A DNA stretch of 64,000 nt from a bacterium (GTDB lineage: Bacteria; Patescibacteriota; Microgenomatia; UBA1406; GWC2-37-13): assembly GCA_021833625.1 (NCBI GenBank), contig JAKBEU010000001.1, positions 124,001 through 188,000 on the forward strand, given 5' to 3'. Under the pieces are notes generated by a model. That model was not told the DNA's origin and did not search any database. It saw only the letters and a list, made by a program, of their open reading frames with translations. How positions within the stretch are numbered: the first letter of the stretch is position 1; every line of letters begins with the position of its first letter. This document shows positions 28,887-49,374 of this stretch, in pieces. The position numbers and the translations under genes are program-made.

Positions 28887-28892
<6 letters not shown>
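28851..28892 (+). promoter_or_regulatory. Leader hairpin and T-tract before 16S
   Basis: A GC-rich stem (GGTC/GACC, CCCC/GGGG, then A-T and GG/CC, with two bulges) spans 28851-28878 and is followed 6 nt later by eight T (28885-28892). It may be an attenuator overcome by boxA, or a processing structure; the gap before the T-tract makes termination uncertain. Confidence 0.45.
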
Positions 28893-30412
<1,520 letters not shown>

Positions 30413-45562: not shown

Positions 45563-45657
45563 TAGAATGTAAGGGTTGAAAAATACGGATTTTTTTGCGG
45601 TACGTCATAGTTTATTTTTTTTGAGTTTAGCGTTTATAGTTTAGGACATTATATTTT

Positions 45658-45666
45658 AAGGAGGTG
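45658..45666 (+). promoter_or_regulatory. Exceptional SD sequence of rpsU
   Basis: AAGGAGGTG, nine consecutive bases complementary to the 16S 3' end, the longest match I found. The spacing to the in-frame ATG at 45676 is 9 nt from the last G and 11 nt from AGGAGG; an out-of-frame ATG at 45671 opens only M-L-W-stop. Confidence 0.8.
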
Positions 45667-45675
45667 TTTCATGTT

Positions 45676-45915
45676 ATGGTAGTGATAAGTAAAAGAAAAG
45701 GGGAGACAAAAGATGCCATTTTTCGCAAATTTTCTCGTGCTTTTATGGACGAGAATATTATGAATGAGGTAAGAAAAAAACAATACTACAAAAAACCATC
45801 TTTGCAGAAAAAAGATGACGAAAAAGAACGTATTCGCGACAGAGCCCGAAGAAGAAGACACGCCCTCGCCTCGGCCAAGTACAACACTTTTAAAAAGCAA
45901 GGAAACAGCAGATAA
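45676..45915 (+). CDS. rpsU: Ribosomal protein bS21
   Basis: 79 residues, very basic. It matches bS21: V-V-I-S-K-R-K-G-E-T-K-D-A-I-F-R-K-F, then M-N-E-V-R-K-K-Q-Y-Y-K-K-P-S and an Arg-rich tail. bS21 sits beside the 16S 3' end on the platform, next to the anti-SD. I chose the ATG at 45676; in-frame GTG at 45664 lies within the SD. The strong SD in a largely SD-less gene set suggests feedback control. It precedes ybeY by 4 nt. Confidence 0.92.
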   Translation: MVVISKRKGETKDAIFRKFSRAFMDENIMNEVRKKQYYKKPSLQKKDDEKERIRDRARRRRHALASAKYNTFKKQGNSR

Positions 45916-45919
45916 ATAA

Positions 45920-46270
45920 ATGATACGCCTTATTACGTCATCCCGGTATATTGTTGATAAAAAAAGGATTCGTCTTTTTATTGAGTCTTTTTTTGGTAAA
46001 AATAATATAGATTCGAGCCTTTCCCTTAACGTTGTTTTTGTGGGAAAAACAAAGATGCGTTCAATTGCTTCAACATATAAACATGAGGATGTTGCCCTTC
46101 CCGTACTTGCTTTTCCGTACCGGAATGACGTCGATATGGGCGAAAGTTTGCTCGGGGAGATATTCCTTTGCTATCCGCAAATTGTTCTTCTTGCGGCTGA
46201 ACGGGGCAAACGCCTTAACGTACTTATTGACGAACTTGTCGAACATGGCATAAAGAATCTCCTCAAATAA
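45920..46270 (+). CDS. ybeY: YbeY-like protein lacking most of the zinc triad
   Basis: 116 residues. The V-V-F-V-G-K-T-K-M-R-S-I-A-S-T-Y segment, the P-V-L-A-F-P strand and L-L-G-E-I-F-L-C follow the YbeY fold. YbeY's active site is H-G-x-x-H-x-x-G-y-D-H. Here only the first His (109) remains in E-H-G-I-K-N-L-L-K, the second position is Asn, and the protein stops before the third His. YbeY normally processes 16S 3' ends. This copy may be inactive or structural. Confidence 0.78.
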   Translation: MIRLITSSRYIVDKKRIRLFIESFFGKNNIDSSLSLNVVFVGKTKMRSIASTYKHEDVALPVLAFPYRNDVDMGESLLGEIFLCYPQIVLLAAERGKRLNVLIDELVEHGIKNLLK

Positions 46271-48983: not shown

Positions 48984-49259
48984 TTAGCCTCTGTATCCTC
49001 CGGTTCTTTCTTCTCTTGGTTTGGCTACATTTACGACTATTGTTCTTCCTTCTACTTCTTTACCATTCATTTCAAGAGCTTTTTGTGCATCTTCTTCTTT
49101 TGCAAACGTTACAAAACCAAATCCCTTTGATCTTCCCGTTTCACGATCATTAATAATGATTGCTTCAACAACTTCTCCGTATTGGGAGAACAGTTCTTTA
49201 AGTGAATCATTTGTTATTGACCAAGGCAAACTTCCGATAAATAATTTGTTTTTTTCCAT
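48984..49259 (-). CDS. RRM-type RNA-binding protein
   Basis: 91 residues forming one RRM: RNP2 is L-F-I-G-S-L (6-11) and RNP1 is K-G-F-G-F-V-T-F (45-52), with the aromatic residues that stack on RNA. The short tail is Arg/Gly-rich (G-G-Y-R-G). Bacterial one-RRM proteins of this type are often cold-induced and act as RNA chaperones. Its message has a long leader and an SD of A-A-G-G-G-G-G-T-G, unlike most genes here. Confidence 0.93.
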   Translation of the reverse strand: MEKNKLFIGSLPWSITNDSLKELFSQYGEVVEAIIINDRETGRSKGFGFVTFAKEEDAQKALEMNGKEVEGRTIVVNVAKPREERTGGYRG

Positions 49260-49374
49260 ATGTTAACACCCCCTTCCCATAAAAATAATTGATATTTCAA
49301 AACACCTTAAACCGCGAAGAAAATAAATTCTTGTGTGTGAGTCGGATGGCAGATTGTTTTGCAAGATACCGTTC

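Follow-up and report, generated by a model that had tools for sequence, protein, structure and literature searches.

Ribosomal protein bS21 is encoded by rpsU, and in the 64,000-nucleotide stretch of DNA analysed here (the window) this gene is preceded by a nine-nucleotide Shine-Dalgarno (SD) sequence in a genome where most genes have no SD. The question raised by this locus is whether the SD simply directs efficient initiation or also allows bS21 to control its own synthesis, as has been predicted for the Bacteroidota from the long rpsU SD in their SD-poor genomes (PMC9976891). The window belongs to a 1.10 Mb Patescibacteria (CPR) genome that is 99.6% complete; among named genomes it is closest to Candidatus Roizmanbacteria MAGs that bear LacPavin isolate names (L118, L119). 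A search of open papers gave none that deals with the rpsU leaders of CPR bacteria. The data are MAGs, and the SD energies were calculated by duplexfold with a 14-nt tail, so they are not identical to the free_scan values of McNutt et al. 2023.

The rpsU leader and its start codon

The 16S rRNA tail reads ...GGATCACCTCCTTTC and the anti-SD is intact in the window's genome, so AAGGAGGTG upstream of rpsU pairs with it at all nine positions, as the first-pass annotation of this DNA had stated (Table 1). The pairing energy is -16.2 kcal/mol, which is below the -13 criterion of McNutt et al. 2023. The only other exact AAGGAGGTG in the window, at 30402-30410 on the minus strand, is the complement of the anti-SD itself. 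The bS21 protein scores 31.8 bits against PF01165 and passes the curated cut-off of 27. We detected no structure in the rpsU leader (z about 0 to 1.5), so an RNA switch is not needed to explain it. Within the block shared with the same-genus relatives, the TATATT beside the SD is possibly a -10-like element that could act in a promoter, and a promoter scan gave no site fitting the rpsU leader above chance. Initiation at ATG 45676 is well supported, and it is almost certainly led by the SD.

Table 1. Coordinates of features in the window that bear on rpsU initiation (energies in kcal/mol)
Feature	Position	Strand	Evidence or remark
16S rRNA gene	28887..30411	+	Rfam RF00177 match, 1313 bits
Anti-SD CACCTCCTT, 16S 3' end	30402..30410	+	Tail unchanged among 29 relatives
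Block ttatattttaaggaggtgt, common to both same-genus relatives	45649..45667	+	Leaders L032/L033 = L118/L119
Extended Shine-Dalgarno AAGGAGGTG of rpsU	45658..45666	+	9/9 pairs with the 16S tail of its own genome; strong SD in 67/67 family leaders
Spacer from SD to start	45667..45675	+	11 nt from GGAGG; family range 6-16, median 11
Out-of-frame mini-ORF ATG-TTA-TGG-TAG (M-L-W-stop)	45671..45682	+	Not in the 66 other family leaders; judged incidental
rpsU, ribosomal protein bS21, 79 aa, start ATG 45676	45676..45915	+	PF01165 E=1.1e-7; start aligned with MVV... of relatives
RRM RNA-binding protein gene	48984..49259	-	PF00076 E=7e-28
SD AAGGGGGTG of the RRM gene	49267-49275	-	9 pairs, one G-U, -16.9

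Conservation within the family

We compared 67 rpsU genes of the family, including that of the window, from 72 genomes; these sequences are related and not independent. Every leader reaches -12.1 kcal/mol or lower and 61 of the 67 reach -13, while genome-wide SD use is low, a pattern for which the first-pass annotation had proposed a comparison of related genomes. Loss of the SD at rpsU in close relatives was looked for, and none was found among the 67 family leaders. At the named loci, the -13 level is reached by rpsU in 33/38 cases versus 0.56% of 538 neighbouring genes, and comparing rpsU with genes of the same genomes gives a Mann-Whitney P of about 5e-41, although this value comes from related sequences that are not independent. 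Among other ribosomal protein genes of the family, rplL is at or below -13 in all 15 parsed leaders (15 loci were not parsed) and rpsT in 20 of 27 parsed leaders (four of the remainder were mis-parsed). None of 30 parsed rpsR leaders reaches -10; in 23 of these cases the sequence clearly identifies bS18. We considered covariation of the anti-SD with variant SDs such as GGAGGCG and rejected it, as the 16S tail does not vary among 29 relatives.

Two additional observations concern gene copies. At locus L068 (G008:C6) there is a second, more divergent bS21-like gene with a GTG start and a AAGGAGGTG leader of its own, which may be a mobile copy or a contaminant. In genus g5, each of both genomes has two bS20 genes (L159, L160; G010:C7, G009:C7).

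Strong Shine-Dalgarno sequences in the rest of the genome

In a set of 303 genes, drawn from the window and from 17 first stretches of the genome, the SD region has a mean energy of -2.46 kcal/mol versus -2.36 for its own shuffles. A wider census of genome stretches relied on a simple gene caller, which overlooks short genes (rpsU included), and on SD-blind starts chosen by coding score. Of its 802 called genes, 8 lie at or below -12 and 6 at or below -14, and rpsU would rank about 7 of 803. The view that SDs are scarce on other genes therefore holds. Compared with a mock region upstream, the SD region pairs more weakly, yet because it equals its own shuffles we make no claim of active SD avoidance as in Flavobacteriales.

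The first-pass annotation had also taken rpsU to be the sole gene with a perfect 9-nt SD, and the idea that rpsU stands alone has to be corrected, since about ten other genes of this genome have SDs that are equal or stronger. AAGGAGGTG occurs 20 times genome-wide, and about ten of these sites are positioned as gene SDs. SDs stronger than that of rpsU precede bL12 (-18.3 kcal/mol; L111:493-876), HU (-17.5; G000:C3:174727-174999) and bS20 (-17.2; L104:11840-12094), among others, and the strong-SD class also includes two RRM proteins, DUF5679, a LemA-like protein (recognised by eye; the fragment searched had no Pfam match) and a few small or unknown proteins. One RRM gene lies in the window; the second RRM-type RNA-binding protein gene, near 138343 on the minus strand of G000:C3, likewise has a 9-bp SD. 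Strong SDs are thus a rare class in this genome, about 1% of genes, of which rpsU is one member. Strong SDs on many other genes had been named in advance as evidence against a special role of rpsU, and what we observe is a weak form of this, about 10 of roughly 1000 genes.

These genes bring in the main rival explanation, in which a limited set of short genes, most of them standing alone, has constitutively strong SDs for efficient initiation and the occupancy of the ribosome by bS21 is irrelevant. The SDs of bL12, bS20, HU and the two RRM genes fit this explanation, as do the strong family leaders of rplL and rpsT. Against it, no strong SD was found on EF-Tu, the S10/spc genes, bS18, bL20, bL21, bL27, uS2 or IF1, most of which were identified by eye from sequence.

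rpsU across the Patescibacteria

To the family set we added 59 Patescibacteria genomes, almost all of them spread over many other families; the choice followed the listed best matches to bS21 and was not random. In this sample rpsU is at or below -13 in 38 of the 59 genomes, or 40 if alternative in-frame starts are allowed, whereas 4% of 224 neighbouring genes reach this level. General SD use is not mirrored by the rpsU SD, whose strength has a rho of 0.04 with that of neighbouring genes, with few neighbours per genome.

We compared rpsT and rplL in 30 genomes outside the family, nearly all of them chosen for a strong rpsU SD. In this selected set, rpsT has a strong SD in none of 29 parsed genomes; the window's family, where it is frequent, is the only one with it among the families sampled. 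Where rpsU, rpsT and rplL could all be read, rplL is strong in 6 of 19 genomes, all of the same class, and the rpsU SD is stronger than both others in 14 of the 19, again in a set chosen for a strong rpsU SD. That rpsU retains its SD outside the family while rpsT and mostly rplL do not argues against a constitutive class of efficiently initiated genes. We nevertheless regard the constitutive explanation as a real possibility, if a somewhat doubtful one.

In several lineages (f51, f22, f42, f85, f91, f100, f121, f139) rpsU has no SD, and in f51 rpsT also has none. In these SD-less genes a TATAAT-like box often lies 6-10 nt upstream of the ATG (L074, L078, L369, L374, L385, L402), which suggests that their mRNAs may be leaderless. 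Most of one SD-less clade has a one-residue insertion near the N-terminus of bS21 (VTRKDxKE; L369, L374, L394, L400, L402, L405). We rejected this insertion as a separator of lineages with and without the SD, because the SD-bearing f53 shares it, and phylogeny may therefore explain its distribution. Of the 379 Patescibacteria genomes sampled, 85 gave no bS21 gene at the search threshold, among them all five listed for f21. Viral relatives of bS21 are present on four contigs and have a weak SD (-5.2).

A possible bS21 feedback and the Bacteroidota precedent

In Flavobacterium johnsoniae, the 16S tail is held by bS21 together with bS18 and bS6, and when ribosomes lack bS21, translation of rpsU improves and that of SD-less mRNAs declines (PMC9976891). 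By analogy, the rpsU leader studied here may be an SD-dependent initiation site within a mostly SD-independent genome. AAGGAGGTG would pair with the free 3' tail of the 16S rRNA and set initiation at ATG 45676. 30S subunits short of bS21 would initiate poorly on SD-less mRNAs and well on rpsU, because the long SD-anti-SD helix would substitute for bS21 or be more available in its absence, and a shortage of bS21 would therefore raise bS21 synthesis. In support of this homeostatic feedback, we observe the SD and its conservation, an intact anti-SD, a leader free of structure, the scarcity of SDs and the persistence of the SD specifically on rpsU across the phylum. Against it, the rpsU SD is not the strongest in the genome, Tyr54 is not conserved (below), several lineages have an SD-less rpsU, and SD regions are not depleted relative to shuffles. 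We favour a Bacteroidota-like feedback tentatively; control by bS21 occupancy, which we infer by analogy, could well be real. A variant that needs only the second half of the scheme, in which bS21-poor subunits rely on the long SD, is also possible.

The likeness to F. johnsoniae and other Bacteroidota (PMC9976891) consists of an exceptionally strong rpsU SD, most genes without an SD and an intact CCUCC anti-SD, and, of the ribosomal protein genes compared in the Patescibacteria sample, rpsU is the one whose strong SD is most persistent. Most other genes lack an SD, as the census and the shuffles indicate, but rpsU is not the ribosomal protein gene with the strongest SD, since bL12 and bS20 exceed it in this genome and the family's rplL and rpsT leaders are as strong or stronger. 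Here we are also in another phylum and work from sequence alone. In E. coli-type genomes, where SDs are common, the starts of SD-led ribosomal protein genes are likewise set by SD-anti-SD pairing, whereas here a strong SD is found on about 1% of genes.

In the Bacteroidia pocket, Tyr54 of bS21 stacks on A1534 (PMC9976891), and the first-pass annotation had looked to the bS21 C-terminus for such contacts. Numbered by the ungapped match to residues 1-48 of 7jil chain z, 58 of the 67 family proteins have K, Q or R at position 54, and three have an aromatic residue there (Y/H). It is therefore unlikely that the same sequestration pocket, or a Bacteroidia-type lid over the anti-SD, exists here. The Chlorobia offer a further comparison: their rpsU has a strong SD, their bS21 lacks Tyr54 and their genomes are mostly SD-less, while 11 other pocket contacts are reported as conserved (PMC9976891).

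Because rpsU is not the gene with the strongest SD, bS21-poor ribosomes would be expected to favour other genes too. One wider reading is an occupancy switch that works without the Bacteroidia pocket, in which 30S subunits poor in bS21 would select mRNAs with an extended SD, giving rpsU feedback in a large part of the phylum together with a small Roizmanbacteria SD regulon (bL12, bS20, HU, RRM proteins); we consider this combination unlikely. It is still less probable that the system is primarily a regulon, in which bS21-free ribosomes would favour all strong-SD genes and the level of bS21 would shift a small gene set. About ten strong-SD genes do contrast with a genome that is otherwise SD-neutral, but the set varies by lineage, and the rpsT SD is confined to this family among those sampled.

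Self-regulation of bS21 is so far known only from the unrelated Bacteroidota, and the conservation of the rpsU SD in this family and many related ones hints that it may extend to the CPR. If the feedback proposed for rpsU is true, ribosomes lacking one protein would steer the choice of mRNAs well outside the Bacteroidota, in a bacterial group that ranks among the largest and least studied, and would do so although the residue believed to hold the anti-SD is missing. Such a finding would point to a mechanism of old origin or to convergent use of the same control point.

The out-of-frame start codon and chance occurrence

In the first-pass annotation, the feedback had two elements. The conserved long rpsU SD in an SD-poor genome, as in the Bacteroidota signature, stands, and the route to rpsU through a mini-ORF is not supported. 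In that route, ribosomes would initiate at ATG 45671, described as the ATG best placed for the SD, and reach rpsU by frameshift or re-initiation. The M-L-W-stop frame exists and is out of frame with rpsU, but its TAG (45680-45682) covers codons 2-3 of rpsU and not its start. ATG 45676 already lies at the family median distance from GGAGG, leaving no advantage to ATG 45671. A short out-of-frame ATG is present in 1 of 67 family leaders, that of the window, and both same-genus relatives lack it (tatatataATG). If anything, ATG is rarer in family spacers than in shuffles (1 versus 4.2, P about 0.06 with the SD tail trimmed). We dropped the claim that AUG is avoided in the spacer, since the P of 0.0005 obtained with raw shuffles rose to this value after trimming. 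We therefore consider initiation at ATG 45671 highly improbable. Finally, AAGGAGGTG occurs 20 times in 1.1 Mb versus 14 for the reversed pattern, as a chance 9-mer might, but its position and its family-wide conservation (the Mann-Whitney comparison above, in which related sequences are not independent) make chance a negligible explanation for the copy at rpsU.
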